64,000 bases of DNA from Kiritimatiellia bacterium (GTDB taxonomy: Bacteria; Verrucomicrobiota; Kiritimatiellia; WLWN01), in assembly GCA_012103575.1 (NCBI GenBank), contig WLWN01000001.1, forward strand, positions 2,484,538 through 2,548,537, written 5' to 3'. The notes under the pieces were generated by a model. It was not told the origin of the DNA, searched no databases, and saw only the letters and a program-made list of their open reading frames with translations. The translations under genes were made by a program, and so were the position numbers. Every line of letters starts with the position of its first letter. Within the stretch, counting starts at the first letter, position 1. Below are positions 7,075 to 63,090 of this stretch, one piece after another.

Positions 7075-8064
7075 GAGCGCTTCACGATTGAGGTGTCGCG
7101 ATGTAGCACGAAGAAGACCAGCCGATTACCTCGTCGGGAGGAACCTCTTCGAACGCTTGTGTGATCGCTTCAGATAGTTCCTGATGACTGCGGGCTGCAA
7201 GGCTGCCCAACCGATTCTTTATCTTGCCCCACGTTTTTTCAATGGGGTTGGAATCGGGGCTGTAGGGTGGAAGGAATCTTACATGGGCCCCACATGACTC
7301 AATGAGTTCAATGACCCTGGGATTGTGATGGACGCGAAGATTGTCCATGATGACGATGTCTTCAGGTGAAAGAGTCGGGAGAAAAACCCGGCGAATATAT
7401 TCTCCAAAAACAGCCGTGCCTGTCGCCCCCTCCATGGCCGCTGTTGTTCCGTCCAGGCGGACCGAAGAAATCAAGGTAGTGGTACACCAATGTCCATGAG
7501 GCGTTTTGGTAAAAAGCCTGTTCCCGCCCAACGCCCGGCCCCGCAGACGAGTCATATTCGTTTTCACCCCGGATTCATCAATAAAGACAAGGCGACTTGG
7601 ATCAAGTTTGGCCACCTCTTGGATCCACTGCTTTCTCAAGAGATTTACATCCGCCCGGCCTTGCTCGCTGGCGTGAAGCGTTCTTTTTATACCGGGAGCC
7701 CAACCGATTCAACGCCCGCTGTACGGCCATGATCGACCCCTTCACGCCGCTCATGTCCTTGAGTTCTTCAAGCGTTGCATCGGGATGTTTGCCCCCCAGT
7801 TGAGCCAACGCCCTGAGCTGCTTTCCGCTGTAGAGGGCCTGACGATGCCCACGCGGTCGGGGAGCGGTCTGTCCGGTTTCGTTGAAACGAGAGAGCCCAC
7901 GCTGAAACGTTCTAAGATCTACACGATAAGAAGATGCGATATCGGCCTAGGAACCTTTGCCCATTTTGTAGGCATCTATCGCGCGCCGCCGGATTTCTGC
8001 TGTTGCTATACTCGTGTCATGGAGTATAGATCTTCTAGAGAGGCATTTCAATCGTTAAATGCTC
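7075..8064 (-). mobile_element. IS630-family insertion sequence, copy 1 (degenerate)
   Basis: About 990 bp, flanked by TA on both sides (7073-7074 and 8065-8066), the IS630/Tc1 target. The ends are imperfect inverted repeats: GAGCGCTTCACGATTGAGGTG on the 7075 side and GAGCATTTAACGATTGAAATG read inwards from 8064. It is nearly identical to copy 2 (9048-10044) in opposite orientation. It has accumulated disabling changes: the transposase start ATG is ACG (complement of 8013-8015) and a CAG codon is TAG (complement of 7947-7949). It interrupts dinB. Confidence 0.9.
7082..8015 (-). pseudogene. IS630-family transposase in copy 1, inactivated
   Basis: The C-terminal part (7639 down to 7082) keeps the DDE core: [21 protein letters not shown] and [15 protein letters not shown]. 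The N-terminal helix-turn-helix part is homologous to residues 1-137 of copy 2 but has lost its start codon and carries a nonsense codon at the position of Gln in GSQADIA. As in copy 2, the two halves lie in different frames, meeting near a run of A after RY-K. It cannot make a full transposase. Confidence 0.85.
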
Positions 8065-9097: not shown

Positions 9098-9511
9098 ATG
9101 AGTATAGCAACAGCAGAAATCCGGCGGCGTGCGATAGATGCCTACAAAATGGGCAAAGGTTCCCAGGCCGATATCGCATCTTCTTATCGTGTAGATCTTA
9201 GAACGTTTCAGCGTGGGCTCTCTCGTTTCAACGAAACCGGACAGACCGCTCCCCGACCGCGTGGGCATCGTCAGGCCCTCTACAGCGGAAAGCAGCTCAA
9301 GGCGTTGGCTCAACTGGGGGGCAAACATCCCGATGCAACGCTTGAAGAACTCAAGAACATGAGCGGCGTGAAGGGGTCGATCATGGCCGTACAGCGGGCG
9401 TTGAATCGGTTGGGCTGCCGGTATAAAAGAAACGCTTCACGCCAGCGAGCAAGACCAGGCGGATGTAAATCTCTTGAGAAAGCAGTGGATCCAAGAGGTG
9501 GCCAAACTTGA
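9098..9511 (+). CDS. IS630-family transposase, N-terminal ORF (DNA-binding)
   Basis: A 137-residue ORF with a paired helix-turn-helix region: AIDAYKMGKGSQADIASSYRVDLRTFQRGLSRF and a second winged-helix stretch QLGGKHPDATLEELKNMSGVKGSIMAVQRALNRLG. The family-like sequence ends at RY-K around 9425; the following arginine-rich tail is out-of-frame reading. The catalytic half lies in the +1 frame, so a complete enzyme needs a +1 shift at the TATAAAAGAA stretch near 9421-9430. Terminal repeats suggest it acts on its own IS. Confidence 0.75.
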   Translation: MSIATAEIRRRAIDAYKMGKGSQADIASSYRVDLRTFQRGLSRFNETGQTAPRPRGHRQALYSGKQLKALAQLGGKHPDATLEELKNMSGVKGSIMAVQRALNRLGCRYKRNASRQRARPGGCKSLEKAVDPRGGQT

Positions 9512-10037
9512 TCCAAGTCGCCTTGTCTTTATTGATGAATCCGGGGCGAAAACGAATATGACTTGTCTGCGGGGCCGGGCGTTGGGCGGGAACAGGCTTT
9601 TTGCCAAAACGCCTCATGGACATTGGTGTATCACCACCTTGATTTCTTCGGTCCGCCTGGACGGAACAACAGCGGCCATGGAGAGGGAGGGGGCGACAGA
9701 CACGGCTGTTTTTGGAGAATATATTCGCCGGGTTCTTCTCCCGACTCTTTCACCTGAAGACATCGTCATCATGGACAATCTTCGCGTCCATCACAATCCC
9801 AGGGTCATTGAACTCATTGAGTCATGTGGGGCCCATGTAAGATTCCTTCCACCCTACAGCCCCGATTCCAACCCCATTGAAAAAATGTGGGGCAAGATAA
9901 AGAATCGGTTGGGCAGCCTTGCAGCCCGCAGTCAGCAGGAACTATCTGAAGCGATCACACAAGCGTTCGAAGAGGTTTCTCCCGACGAGGTAATCGGCTG
10001 GTTTTCTTCGTGCTACATCGCAACACCTCAATCGTGA
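9474..10037 (+). CDS. IS630-family transposase, catalytic ORF (DDE domain)
   Basis: It begins at a TTG in the frame that continues upstream to the presumed shift site ([20 protein letters not shown]). The DDE residues are visible: [10 protein letters not shown] (D), [11 protein letters not shown] (D) and [15 protein letters not shown] (E). IS630 enzymes cut at TA dinucleotides. No strong ribosome binding site precedes the TTG, so this half is more likely made as a frameshift fusion with the upstream ORF than independently. Whether that shift occurs is not shown by sequence alone. Confidence 0.75.
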
Positions 10038-13011: not shown

Positions 13012-15123
13012 CTACAATGTTTGGGCTATCTGTTCTGTCTCGTAGAACTCAATGATATCACCCTCATTAAAATCAGAAAAATTATCTAACCGGATCCCAC
13101 ACTCTTGTCCATCTCGGACATCGCTAGCTTCATTTTGATAACGTTTCAAAGTCAAAATCCGCGCTTCGCAAAGAACATCACCCTCTCGCAATACACGTGA
13201 AAAGGCCTTTATTGTCACGCGACCATCTGTAACAAGGCATCCGGCTATTTTCCCTTTTTTGCTTATGTCAAAGACCTGTTTTACTTGTGCATGGCCTGTA
13301 ATATTTTCACGTAACTCAGGTTCTAATAGGCCCTCCATGGCTTGCCGAACATCATCTAAAAGCTCATAAATAACATTATAAAGTCTGATTTCGACGCCTT
13401 CATGCTTAGCCAGTTTGTTGACCTGTCCTTCTTTGCTGACATGAAAACCCAAGATGATCGCATTAGAAGCACTGGCTAAAAGCACATCGTTACCGGTGAT
13501 GTTTCCAACCCCTCCAAGAATAATATTCTGAGTGATCTTATCGCTTTTAATTTGTCGAACGGATTGTTGGATAGCCTCGAGTATACCCTGTACATCTGCT
13601 TTAATAAGAATCGATAGTTCTTTAACACTTGTTGCATCTGTTTGTTTAAGTAAATCGTCGAGAGTTGCTTTTCGGCCTGTATGACTACCGGTTAGGGTTT
13701 GATTCCGCTTTTTTTCGAGCCGTTTTTCGGAAATAGATCTTGCCAATCGATCATTGGGATAGACTTTGAATTCTGAGCCCGCATCAGGCACTTCAGGCAA
13801 CCCTAAACATTTAACCGCCATGGAGGGTCCTGCCTGCTCTATTTTAACGCCTTGATCGTTTATGAGGGCTTTTATGCGACCCCAATAAGGTCCACAAACC
13901 ATGACATCACCGACATGAAGTATTCCCCGTTTGACAAGAAGGCTTGCTGTGGGGCCCATTCCAGTCTCTAAACACGCTTCAACAACATATCCCTGTGCTT
14001 TGCGTTTGGGATTTGACTTTAGTTCGAGTATTTCGGCTTGGAGAAGAATCATTTCTAAAAGATGGTCTATTCCCTCCCCCGTGTGAGCACTAACTGGACA
14101 ACAAATCGTCTCTCCACCCCACTCTTCTGGAGTCAGATTCTCTTCTTGAAGCTGCTGTTTGACTTTATCAACATTAGCTGTTTTTAGGTCAACCTTGTTG
14201 ATCGCAACCATGATGGAAACTCCCGCAGCGCGAATATGTTGAAGCGCTTCGCGGGTTTGTGATTTTATCCCGTCATCAGCAGCAATCACAATAACCGCAA
14301 TATCCGTCAAATTCGCGCCTCGAGCACGCATCGCCGTAAAAGCCTCATGACCCGGGGTATCAATAAAGGTGATTTTCTGTCCTTGATAATCGATCGTGTA
14401 GGCACCGATATACTGCGTGATGCCCCCGTCTTCTCCTTGGGCTACTTTCGCTTCCCTGATTTGGTCCAGCAGAGAGGTTTTACCATGATCAACATGTCCC
14501 AAAAAAGTAATTACGGGTGGACGAGGGACCAAGTCTTCAAGTTTATCTTCTTCAGGTTCTTCGTCCGCAGAAGGGGGCGAGGCCATGGGCTTTCGGTCGG
14601 CTGATTTTTTTTCATATTCCAATCTGATTCCATGTTTCTCGGCAACTTTCTGTGCCACTTTGAGATCAAGTCTTTCATTAATAGAGGCAAAAATGTTCAT
14701 GGACATTAACTCGGCAATCAGCTGATTAGGCCGCATATTTAAATGGGCAGAAAACTCTTTGACAACAATAGGACCTTTAATGATTACGGACCTCGATTCA
14801 CTGGTCTGGGAGGATAGCGGTTTTTGTGAGGAAACCTCAGTGAAGGCCTTGGGCAAAGGGTCAGAAGATGTGTTTTGATCTCCAGAAAAATGGGGTTGAC
14901 CTTTTGTTTTTTCGGCCAAACTGGGTATAAGCTCACTCTCTCTGACCTGAACAGATTCTGGTGGAGCTGCAGCCCCGTCCCCCCGCTTGCTACGGATGGT
15001 ATCAACGTCTTGAAGGCTCAAAGCGCTCATATGACTTTTTGCGTCTACACCCCGTTGCTGAAGGTCTGATAACAGTTCCTTGCTGGATAGGTCCAATTCT
15101 TTTGCTAATTCGTGAACTCTCAT
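13012..15123 (-). CDS. infB: Translation initiation factor IF-2
   Basis: A 703-residue GTPase. The N-terminal IF2-N module is visible (MRVHELAKELDLSSKELLSDL), then a low-complexity linker, a second IF2-N module (VKEFSAHLNMRPNQLIAELM), and the G domain with GHVDHGKTSLLD (G1), GGITQYIGAY (G2), DTPGHEAF (G3) and NKVD (G4). Domains II-IV follow with a normal end. It recruits fMet-tRNA to the 30S subunit. It overlaps nusA by the ATGA at 15120-15123, so the two are translationally coupled. The linker is short compared with enterobacterial IF-2. Confidence 0.95.
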   Translation of the reverse strand: MRVHELAKELDLSSKELLSDLQQRGVDAKSHMSALSLQDVDTIRSKRGDGAAAPPESVQVRESELIPSLAEKTKGQPHFSGDQNTSSDPLPKAFTEVSSQKPLSSQTSESRSVIIKGPIVVKEFSAHLNMRPNQLIAELMSMNIFASINERLDLKVAQKVAEKHGIRLEYEKKSADRKPMASPPSADEEPEEDKLEDLVPRPPVITFLGHVDHGKTSLLDQIREAKVAQGEDGGITQYIGAYTIDYQGQKITFIDTPGHEAFTAMRARGANLTDIAVIVIAADDGIKSQTREALQHIRAAGVSIMVAINKVDLKTANVDKVKQQLQEENLTPEEWGGETICCPVSAHTGEGIDHLLEMILLQAEILELKSNPKRKAQGYVVEACLETGMGPTASLLVKRGILHVGDVMVCGPYWGRIKALINDQGVKIEQAGPSMAVKCLGLPEVPDAGSEFKVYPNDRLARSISEKRLEKKRNQTLTGSHTGRKATLDDLLKQTDATSVKELSILIKADVQGILEAIQQSVRQIKSDKITQNIILGGVGNITGNDVLLASASNAIILGFHVSKEGQVNKLAKHEGVEIRLYNVIYELLDDVRQAMEGLLEPELRENITGHAQVKQVFDISKKGKIAGCLVTDGRVTIKAFSRVLREGDVLCEARILTLKRYQNEASDVRDGQECGIRLDNFSDFNEGDIIEFYETEQIAQTL

Positions 15124-58623: not shown

Positions 58624-59568
58624 CTACGTTGGGGTTCCGCCTAAAAAAGAGTTGACGTTGTCAGCGGTTACCTTCATGAGTCGACGACGAGCCGCTAGGG
58701 TTCCCCACGCCATATGAGGTGTAATAATACAATTTTTGGCGTTTAGCAAAGGATTATCAGGGCAGATCGGTTCAACGGAAACAACATCAACCGCGGCGTC
58801 GGCTAATTGGGCAGCGTTTAATGCATGGGCAAGATCTTGTTCGTTTATTAACGAGCCCCTCGATGTGTTAATTAAAAAGGCTGAAGGTTTCATATGGCCT
58901 AAGAATTTTGCATTTACAAACTCTATATTGTCTTCAGTCTGAGGACAATGAAGGCTAATCACGTCGGCTTTAGCAAAAACATTGGGGATTTCTTTCCAAG
59001 AGAAGGGTGTATAATCAGGCTCTTTACCATGGACGACATCCGCAGCGATTACGTTCATCTCAAAGGCATGAGCCAATGCTCCTGTTCGTCGTCCAATACG
59101 CCCGAATCCAATAAGGCCCATGGTTAGTCCGGCTAGTTCTACAAGTGGATAATCCCAAAAACAAAAATCTCCGCGTTTTCTCCATTCTCCCTCTTTTACA
59201 ACTTGAGCATGGTGGGCGACATGATGACAAAGGTTTAATAAAAGGGCCAATACGTATTAGCTAACCGTGTCGGTTCCATAAACAGGGACGTTGGATACAA
59301 GAATGTTTCGTACCCGGGCTGTTTTGGTATCTACAATGTTATATCCTGTAGCTAGGACAGAAATAAATTTTAGATCAGGTAACTGAGCTAACGTTTCATC
59401 GGTTAGAGGCGTTTTGTTAGTTAGAATAATGTCTGCTTCTTGTGAACGCTCCAAAATCTGATCATGTGATGTCTGATCATATACGGTGACGTCTCCGCAC
59501 TTTTGGACTTCATCCCACGGATTATCGCCAGGATTTAATGTGTACCCATCCAAAACAACTATTTTCAT
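58624..59568 (-). pseudogene. D-2-hydroxyacid dehydrogenase with one nonsense codon
   Basis: The first part (MKIVVLDGYTLNPGDNPWDEV...LPDLKFISVLATGYNIVD...NVPVYGTDTVS) stops at TAA (59259-59257); the same frame continues YVLALLLNLCHHVAHHAQVV and the NAD domain MGLIGFGRIGRRTGALA, ...DVISLHCPQTEDN, FLINTSRGSLINEQDL and NCIITPHMAWGT. The stop replaces the Gln expected in D-x-V-(A/S)-Q-Y-V. It resembles glycerate/hydroxypyruvate reductases. One base change (TAA from CAA) inactivates it. It follows the ygeW remnant by 12 bases. Confidence 0.88.
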
Positions 59569-59856
59569 CGGTATCCTTACCTATTCAGAGAGTCTTGGGT
59601 GACTGGTTTGTATGAGTGCTTCTAACGTTGAAACAGGATCTTTAATTTTCGCCAAAAAAATCATGGCCGCAATGATATGCGGTTTAAAACTGGCTTCGTG
59701 ATAGGTGTCGGGAATATATCGATCAAATACAGATCTTTCCACTTCACCCCGATCACAGCTTAGGCCGGTAATGTCTGCGGGAAGACAATGCTGATACAGG
59801 GCGTTACCTTCTTTTGTCAGCTTCATTCTTTCTTCGGTGCATTCCCAATCAACTAT

Positions 59857-61514
59857 CCTGAATCCGTCAGCTATCGCTTCGGAAGGTGTTTTGGGGCTCA
59901 AAAGTTGAAAACTTTTTCCTTGAGATGCTCGCTTTTGGGCGGATTGGGACCGGCAAGTATCACCCTGATGAATTTTTTGAGCGTACAGGTCAGATTCACT
60001 CTGATTTGACCATTTTGGGGCGTAAGCCTCCTTGGGCAGTCGCCTTAGAGTATTGTTAAAGGTGCACGGAGGGCTATGCGAAGGAATGGGCAATATCTTG
60101 TATCACTTCAAACCAGCGACAACGCTTGCCAAAGTGAAGTTCAATTCGTCCGGCGTGGCGGACCAATCGAGCCGCGCAATAAACGATATTTTTGAGAACC
60201 GTTTTGATTCGCCAGCGCGGGATGTTGATTTTCTGCGGGGCAAGCCCAGCCCGTTTGATGACCTCTTGGCCAAGACGGCGCAATAGGTTGAAGAGCCACC
60301 ATGGCGCATAACAGAATAATCTTATTGGCACAGAGTCTCCCCGAAGGCAATCGCTCAACATCAAGATCGCTTTTGAGTTCACTGTGGTACTGCTCGCTGG
60401 GGTCATGTCCATGATAGAGATCTAGCACCGTCTTGGCACGACAAGAGAGGTTCGTCCACCAGGTGTTTACCTCAAGTTTAGGAACCAGAAGTTTCTGACC
60501 ATCGATATCGATGGTGCGTTCAATCACTTCAAAGGCCACCGGGACACAAGGGCGGTTTTGGTCACCACCGGGATGGAAATGATCGAAAAAGCCTGTGTAA
60601 ACGTTCTTGCCTTCACGACTGTCTTGTTTGTCTCCAACTCGGCGTGCAAGGGCCAGCATTTGTTCAGGACATTCGCGGCGAAGATTTCGCTTTACGATGA
60701 AATAATGATCCCCAAAAGCGTCGAAGTTATCGGCCGCAGCGTTGCCACTATCAAGCCGAAGCAAACATTTTCCACCCAGGCCCAGGGTTTGGAGCGTTTC
60801 AACGCTGCGGGCAATAAACGCGGTCGTTCCCGACTGACAATGTTGTTTACCGGGTCGAAGTTCGCACTCAAGCATGTGGCCTTGAGTGCCCACATAGGCA
60901 AATATCGGGGCGTAACCATCATGGCCCTTCTAGGTGTAGGAAACGCCTTCTTCCGAAGAGCCTGAGTGCTCCAAAGGCTCACATCGATATCGACGGGAAC
61001 AAGATCAAGCCCTTCGACATCTACGTAGCCAAAGGGGCCCGAGGAAAGAAGTTCGGTGTTGAGTTTGCGTAGCCCCACATGGGTTCTGGCTGGGGGCAGG
61101 TCGTCGAAACGACGTCGGAACACCGGCTCAGAGGCTACCTTTTTAACTCCCCTTTTTAAGTCCAAAGGCATTCATAAAAATCTCATCACCCCGGTACAGG
61201 TCGATATCATTGAAATCGGTTCGACCGTTGCAAAGTAAGCCGATCTGGGTAAGGAGGATCTCCCGATCAGAGATCGCATCGGAGCGGCGTGGTTAAAAAT
61301 TGGAGGGAAGAATCCGTTGAGCATGATCCTCAAGCAGCAGGCCGCAAAGATGATTTCCGCTTGTGCTGTTGAGTTCGCTCTTGCCAGTCTTTATTTTATA
61401 TTGTTTCATATACACACCTGTTGGGGTGGGGTTGTTTGTTTGAATACGGGTATCCTCCCCGCTTTAGCCCAACAGGTAATGAAAAATCGTCAGATTTTAT
61501 CTGACGGATTCAGG
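59857..61514 (-). mobile_element. IS1380-family-like insertion sequence
   Basis: A 1658-bp element with terminal inverted repeats CCTGAATCCGTCAG at both ends (59857-59870 and complement of 61501-61514). The possible target duplication is 5 bp with one mismatch (ACTAT/AATAT). It interrupts the ygeW pseudogene and carries a multiply frameshifted transposase. Near the right end CGTCAGAT-TTT-ATCTGACG (61488-61506) makes a hairpin with the terminal repeat. The same terminus is found on the nearby MITE. Confidence 0.82.
60074..61330 (-). pseudogene. IS1380-family transposase, several frameshifts
   Basis: Homologous blocks lie in order on the minus strand but in changing frames: DREILLTQIGLLCNGRTDFNDIDLYRGDEIFMNAFGLK (near 61290-61165), VASEPVFRRRFDDLPPARTHVGLRKLNTEL and VDVEGLDLVPVDIDVS (61171-60960), GTQGHMLECELRPGKQHCQSGT...CLLRLDSGNAAADNFDAF and DLYHGHDPSEQYHSELKSDLDVERLPSG (60893-60310), and LNLLRRLGQEVIKRAGL to the end at 60074. 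The DSGN and E-x-x-H-S-E-L-K-D blocks identify the DDE core. At least three frameshifts make it inactive. Confidence 0.82.
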
Positions 61515-61911
61515 AATATGCCTTTTATTTTCTTCTAAGCATTCTTTTTCTAAATGCTTGAGGCCTTCATGGTCCTGTGCATGCAAAAGATCTCTTCTTT
61601 GCTCCATGATGTGCAGCTAGCCCAAGCGCATTAACGGCAGAGGCAAAGCTAAAACGGGTCCGTGTAGAATAATCCCGAAAAATAGAAATGGCTAAGCCTG
61701 TATCAAAAATCCTCGTGGAAATGTTTTGCTTATGTAACTCCTTTAAAATTTTAGCCACATATAATGTCGCCTTAAGATCGTCCTCTGATTTTTCCCATGT
61801 TAACAAAAAGTCCTTCGCAAACATGTCAGACTTTAACAGCCCTAATTTTTCAAGGTCGGTTTTTACCCCATTGTTCATTATATGATATATCCTTTATTGA
61901 GATGCTGCATG

Positions 61912-61941
61912 TTGACAGCGTGCTTAATCGGACGTTATGTT
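61912..61941 (+). promoter_or_regulatory. Predicted arcC promoter just upstream of a MITE
   Basis: TTGACA (61912-61917) and TATGTT (61936-61941, 4 of 6) are 18 bases apart. The MITE begins 4 bases later at 61945, so transcripts starting here would carry the whole 163-base palindrome in the arcC leader. Confidence 0.5.
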
Positions 61942-61944
61942 TAT

Positions 61945-62107
61945 CCTGGATCCGTCAGTTAAACGTGGGATTTCTGTGCGAATGCTTTGGAGGCAAAAGG
62001 TTGCAAAAAAACGCAGGCGCACCCGCTGGGTGCGTCGAGGCTTTTTTGTAATTCCTTTTGGCCCAAATAGTTCGTGCAGAAAACCGCATTTAACTGACGG
62101 ATCCAGG
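61945..62107. mobile_element. 163-bp palindromic MITE with IS1380-like termini
   Basis: The left arm starts CCTGGATCCGTCAGTTAAAC and the right arm, read inwards from 62107, starts CCTGGATCCGTCAGTTAAAT; imperfect pairing runs through to a GCACCC-GCT-GGGTGC centre. It is flanked by perfect 5-bp direct repeats TTTAT (61940-61944 and 62108-62112). Its ends match those of the IS1380-like element (CCTGAATCCGTCAG) except for one base. It encodes nothing and lies in the divergent ygeW-arcC region, 38 bases before the arcC ATG. Confidence 0.88.
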
Positions 62108-62145
62108 TTTATTTCAGTAGTAAAGAAAGTCAATCTATATCTTAC

Positions 62146-63090
62146 ATGAACTCTAAATTAGTCGTTATTGCAATAAGCGGGAATTCCCTTATTTCAAACC
62201 CTGCACAGATGTCGGTACTCGACCAATATCGAGCTGCGGGAGAAACAAGCTGTCATATCGCCACCCTTGTTAAAGCGGGGTATCGCGTTGTGATTACGCA
62301 TGGAAACGGCCCGCAAGTAGGGTTTATCCTTTTGCGATCGGAACTCGCTAAAGACACGTTGCATCAAGTTCCTTTAGAAAGTTGCGTGGCCGATACACAG
62401 GGGGCTATTGGGTATCAGATTCAACAAACACTTTCCAACGAACTAAGACGTCAAGATATTTGGAAACAGGTAGCCACCCTTATAACACAGGTGGTCGTCG
62501 ACAAGAAAAATCCTGCCTTTCAAAACCCTTCCAAACCGATTGGCCCCTTTCTAAGTGAGGAGGACGCCCTCTATCAACAAGAAAAAGAAGGGTGGTCGCT
62601 TATAGAAGATGCTGGTCGTGGATGGCGTCGCGTTGTGCCCTCACCCAAACCCTTAGAAATTATTGAACTATCATCCATTCAAAGCTTGCTTGACCAAGAC
62701 ATCATTGTCGTAGCCGGCGGCGGTGGTGGGATTCCCGTTATACGAACAGAAGATGGATCCCTGAAAGGATGTCCAGCCGTCATAGAAAAGATACGGGATC
62801 TTCTGTACTCGCCAAAAGAAATCAATGCAAAGACGTTTATCATTTCTACAACGGTGGATCAGGTCGCTCTGCATTTTGGGAAACCCAACCAAACGTTCAT
62901 TGACCGTATGAGCCTTGCTGAAGCCCGAAAGTATATGGAAGAAGGCTATTTTGCAGCAGGTAGCATGAAGCCTAAAATCGAAGCCTGCATTGATTTCTTA
63001 GAAAACGGCGGAGAAGAAGTCATTATTACTCAAGCCCACCTTTTGGGAAAAGCCATACAGGGTGAAACGGGAACGCATATTAAAGACTAA
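62146..63090 (+). CDS. arcC: Carbamate kinase
   Basis: A 314-residue amino-acid-kinase-fold enzyme: AISGNSLISN (N-terminal phosphate loop), VITHGNGPQVGFILLRSE, SCVADTQGAIGYQIQQTL, RRVVPSPKPLEIIE, VAGGGGGIPVI and AAGSMKPKIEACIDFLENGG. It makes ATP from carbamoyl phosphate. Its natural partner here, the YgeW-like carbamoyltransferase, is a pseudogene on the opposite strand, so the substrate supply may be lost. A G in the family motif (A-L-G-G-N) is replaced by S (AISGNS), the same small loop being kept. Confidence 0.92.
   Translation: MNSKLVVIAISGNSLISNPAQMSVLDQYRAAGETSCHIATLVKAGYRVVITHGNGPQVGFILLRSELAKDTLHQVPLESCVADTQGAIGYQIQQTLSNELRRQDIWKQVATLITQVVVDKKNPAFQNPSKPIGPFLSEEDALYQQEKEGWSLIEDAGRGWRRVVPSPKPLEIIELSSIQSLLDQDIIVVAGGGGGIPVIRTEDGSLKGCPAVIEKIRDLLYSPKEINAKTFIISTTVDQVALHFGKPNQTFIDRMSLAEARKYMEEGYFAAGSMKPKIEACIDFLENGGEEVIITQAHLLGKAIQGETGTHIKD

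Follow-up and report, generated by a model that had tools for sequence, protein, structure and literature searches.

The closest known counterparts of the element examined here are MITEPye1 of Paracoccus yeei (PMC11578231), the Correia elements, and QMITE1 and QMITE2 of Coxiella (PMC10969869, PMC5896051). Like our element these are short and non-coding, carry terminal inverted repeats (TIRs) and target site duplications (TSDs), form a long hairpin and lie mostly between genes; MITEPye1 also has ends in common with an insertion sequence (IS), of IS1182 type. A mobile repeat named in PMC10969869 has a terminator-like hairpin too; it comes from another host, the likeness is one of description, and the terminator character of our hairpin is a prediction. 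The relevant IS family is IS1380, whose member IS1247 is 1672 bp long with IR 13/16 and DR 5 (PMC3281130). The element described below differs from the known MITEs in having IS1380-type ends and in that the entire element is one near-perfect palindrome. The type of element is ordinary, an IS1380-type MITE in high copy; no bacterial MITE of IS1380 type was described in the open-access literature that we searched.

The palindromic element upstream of arcC

The MITE lies near the right end of the window (the whole 64,000-nucleotide stretch that was analysed), between the remains of ygeW and an intact arcC-type gene. The features of the region are as follows, in window coordinates.

59581–59856, minus strand: ygeW C-terminal fragment (profile positions ~306–391)
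59857–61514, minus strand: IS1380-family element, 1658 bp, ends CCTGAATCCGTCAG, flanks ACTAT/AATAT; transposase, on the minus strand, disrupted by frameshifts and stop codons
61567–61878, minus strand: ygeW N-terminal fragment (knotted carbamoyltransferase; profile positions ~5–94 of 391)
61912–61941, plus strand: sigma-70-like TTGACA-18-TATGTT before the MITE, at chance level
61940–61944, no strand assigned: left TSD copy, TTTAT, 5 bp
61945–62107, no strand assigned: MITE copy, 163 bp, palindromic, with 2 differences from the family consensus (positions 125 and 144)
61945–61963, plus strand: left TIR of the MITE; first 14 bp CCTGGATCCGTCAG, matching the IS ends at 13/14
62005–62047, no strand assigned: apical hairpin, preceded by an A-tract and followed by a T-tract; terminator-like on both strands (prediction only)
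62089–62107, minus strand: right TIR of the MITE
62108–62112, no strand assigned: right TSD copy, TTTAT, 5 bp
62146–63090, plus strand: carbamate kinase (arcC-type), 314 aa, intact frame

The MITE runs from CCTGGATCCGTCAG to CTGACGGATCCAGG with TTTAT abutting each end, exactly as the initial annotation had it in coordinates, length and duplication; its distance of 38 bases from the MITE to the arcC ATG (62146) was likewise exact. The perfect TIR is 19 bp in this copy and 21 bp in the family consensus. The long palindromic arms that had been proposed are reflected in the folding of the single strand, at -100.9 kcal/mol compared to -45.9 +/- 3.9 for dinucleotide shuffles (z = -14), and the proposed lack of coding capacity also holds, since the MITE contains no gene of its own and only short read-through frames. 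No Rfam family matched at the MITE site.

The ygeW gene (59581–61878) is split by the IS, and about 210 central codons are gone between the two fragments. The IS flanks, ACTAT and AATAT, form no perfect duplication, and together with the codon loss this points to deletion between repeats, not to insertion alone; ygeW was likely lost by deletion between two IS copies. Beside broken ygeW, a D-2-hydroxyacid dehydrogenase-like gene (assigned by eye; 58624–59568) is present as two frames (59257–59568 and 58624–59250) and is an apparent pseudogene.

Copy number, target sites and palindrome upkeep

The host genome is 3.14 Mb in two contigs and contains about 147 copies of the MITE, as counted by matches to the apical 26-mer with no more than 3 mismatches (79 + 68; none with the reversed-pattern control). 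The 14-bp ends give 516 matches with at most one mismatch, and again none with the control. Copy statistics refer to the 582 kb of stretches read around most listed copies. These contain 105 end-to-end copies, 102 of them exactly 163 bp long. Of these copies, 31/105 equal the consensus, and the median copy has one substitution (most have 0–3). Divergence per site is 1.2% among MITE copies and 0.75% among IS copies, and decay of both families consists mainly of G>A and C>T changes; similar divergences of this kind fit broadly contemporary bursts of the two. The family appears confined to this genome among those sampled. There were no MITEs in 56 genomes of the same class, the one further match in a phylum sample of 388 genomes covered 22 bases of the hairpin, in a single genome, and the MITE was not found in plasmid, phage or viral-contig collections.

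Perfect 5-bp TSDs flank 74 of the 105 full copies; when right flanks were shuffled between copies 2000 times, the mean was 1.6 and the highest count 7. At 84% A+T the duplicated 5-mers are richer in these bases than the stretches read (55%), and C is favoured before them and G after. A natural empty site is also present: the MITE at 558981 lies between two copies of GTTTA, and a paralogue near 1829790 is uninterrupted with a single GTTTA, which establishes a real insertion at 558981. The initial annotation had staked its reading on further copies, on target duplications and on ends common with an IS, and all three are found. Furthermore, MITE copies avoid genes, with 13/75 inside called genes compared to 49% of random positions (p = 2e-8), although the gene caller is crude and scored the window MITE as 'inside' solely through a possible upstream start.

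Several copies have unusual structures that bear on how the palindrome is maintained. A 104-bp derivative (183609–183712) is a palindrome with the left arm on both sides. A tandem array starting at 2283958 contains three MITE copies with a 266-bp period and a common spacer; in the copies at 2283958 and 2284224 the right arm has been rewritten to left-arm sequence, and the array hairpin has CCC instead of GGC. Judged by their sequences, such arm-converted copies match the outcome that template switching between the arms would give. Imperfect inverted repeats are known to undergo such homogenisation (PMC7202029, PMC8794818).

The genome is also rich in other IS types, and the window itself contains two near-identical transposase frames in opposite orientation (7082–7639 and 9474–10037), IS630-like by eye.

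Shared ends and broken transposases

The 1658-bp element at 59857–61514 belongs to the IS1380 family. When its stops are written as X, the conceptual transposase scores 282.8 bits against NCBIfam NF033539 (IS1380; cut-off 180), and Pfam PF13701 is above cut-off with matches all over the genome. Its size, its 14-bp ends, its single transposase gene and the 5-bp TSD of other copies fit the family pattern of about 1.7 kb, inverted repeats of roughly 13–16 bp and duplications of about 5 bp, to which IS1247 (PMC3281130) also conforms; it differs in that every copy found here is inactivated, and most of the copies have one common 13-bp insertion. Of the 51 paired IS copies, 12 have a 5-bp TSD. Several copies are of a shorter, 1.55-kb form with an internal deletion, and three of these have a TSD. 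Clostridia, Victivallaceae and a Deltaproteobacterium contain homologues of this IS whose ends are of CCTGAATCCGTGA or CCTGAATCAGTGA type and whose TSDs are likewise 5 bp long. Two further and quite different IS1380-type transposase genes (PF13701) are located at 1444247–1445479 and 2705025–2706299, both interrupted.

MITE and IS ends differ at one position, base 5, which is G in the MITE and A in the IS, just as the initial annotation had reported for the window pair. G is present at both ends of 102/108 MITEs and A at both ends of 46/51 IS copies, with some mixing: a G-type end is found on one side of the remaining 5 of the 51 paired IS copies, and 3 MITEs are A-type at one end or both. A few older, divergent MITE copies have CCTAGATCC ends. 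In the stretches read, such ends occur as a pair only around the MITE, its 104-bp derivative, the IS and the deletion forms of the IS. The IS1380-type character proposed for the MITE ends is thus borne out by the 13/14 match, the mixed end types and a TSD of the same 5 bp. The interiors of MITE and IS are different, and only the ends are common to both; on sequence comparison, descent of the MITE from the 1658-bp IS is not supported beyond these ends.

The proposal that the resident IS mobilised the MITE held up only in part: the ends and the 5-bp TSD are of IS1380 type, but the transposases of the window IS and of all copies found are broken. A 13-bp insertion, consisting of a second TTAAAAAG, is present in 71 of 78 IS copies by junction-pattern matches and throws the reading frame off from about codon 85 onward. 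Each of two TAG codons is common as well (24/30 and 23/30 copies), and in a six-frame protein search with X at the two stop positions the top match is itself a copy with two TAGs. Among the copies found there is no intact IS transposase, as all matches spanning the full 440 residues contain TAG or TGA stops, and no intact IS with these termini, for which the initial annotation had proposed a test, was found in the genome. None of the IS copies found encodes a functional transposase, a finding that concerns autonomy and not family membership. Two possible rescues of the transposase were ruled out. Recoding of TAG is inconsistent with the use of TAG to end 9/47 long frames in the window and to close an IF-2-like gene (13012–15123), and would in any case not overcome the frame break at the 13-bp insertion; slippage by minus one at the A-rich junction fails because the downstream frame needs +1. 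The elements at 1444247 and 2705025 were rejected as the autonomous partner, being interrupted and lacking these ends as a flanking pair.

The insertion is present in 11 of the 12 IS copies with a TSD, which argues that the IS, too, travelled in trans as a defective passenger. With every IS copy found broken, the transposase behind the mobilisation must have been an intact one, now gone or unsampled; an intact enzyme may survive in other strains.

Origin of the family and its effect at arcC

We consider it probable, at about 0.87, that the element is an IS1380-family MITE, that a transposase of IS1380 type mobilised it in trans, and that the copies of both families are now without an intact enzyme. 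Such a transposase would have recognised the 14-bp MITE ends and moved the element into AT-rich, mostly intergenic 5-bp targets that were duplicated on insertion, with the small size of the element and the nature of these targets allowing it to accumulate. Transposase activity common to both would also have dispersed the 1658-bp IS, in copies that for the most part were already dead with the 13-bp insertion. Loss of the last intact transposase would then have left both families stranded, presumably immobile at present, and decaying. The larger share of IS copies without a TSD (39/51, compared to 31/105 MITEs) could reflect easier recombination between copies of the long IS than between MITEs.

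An alternative explanation is that another transposase moved the MITE, such as that of a related element of IS1380 type whose ends are CCTGGATCC or CCTAGATCC, and that the 1658-bp IS is only a cousin with similar ends. The sorting of the two families by base 5, the CCTAGATCC ends of the divergent older MITE copies and the dissimilar interiors are in keeping with this, but the occurrence of both end types within some MITE and IS copies, the restriction of paired ends to MITE and IS forms in the stretches read, and the interrupted state of the sole other IS1380-type genes found, neither of which has such paired ends, lead us to regard it as unlikely, if worth serious thought. That the palindrome arose by chance or in assembly has a negligible likelihood: the folding score, the dispersal of the copies with differing flanks and TSDs, and the empty site refute both.

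The location of the MITE, after a promoter-like site and before the arcC ATG, and a hairpin core predicted to be terminator-like on both strands, raise a different prospect, in which the arcC copy is an attenuator or a mobile bidirectional terminator selected for its effect on arcC or its neighbours. We think this improbable. The promoter match is at chance level (1 found, 1.4 expected in shuffles), and its -10 box ends 3 bases before the MITE and not 4 as first annotated; the neighbour ygeW is already destroyed; and the copies are too young to reveal selection on pairing. Moreover, the copies avoid genes yet are not enriched between convergent genes (7/46 compared to 222/1167, with a crude gene caller). 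Still more doubtful is the broadest version, in which the MITE acts as a mobile two-way terminator that insulates or attenuates neighbours at all ~147 places including arcC, a selfish element left as fixed regulatory hardware. If transcription starts upstream of the MITE, the arcC leader probably contains a long hairpin, to judge from the sequence. The MITE before arcC nonetheless appears to be one tolerated insertion, with no selected role indicated.

For the IS1380 family, the element adds a MITE of a kind that did not emerge from our open-access search, with clean evidence from its ends, its TSDs and an internal empty site. Frameshifted IS copies and MITEs that would both have spread in trans, in a genome with no intact enzyme left, are useful for understanding how IS bursts end, and the arm-converted copies display what would be palindrome homogenisation under way. 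The genome clearly illustrates how a mobile family can persist after its enzyme has gone.
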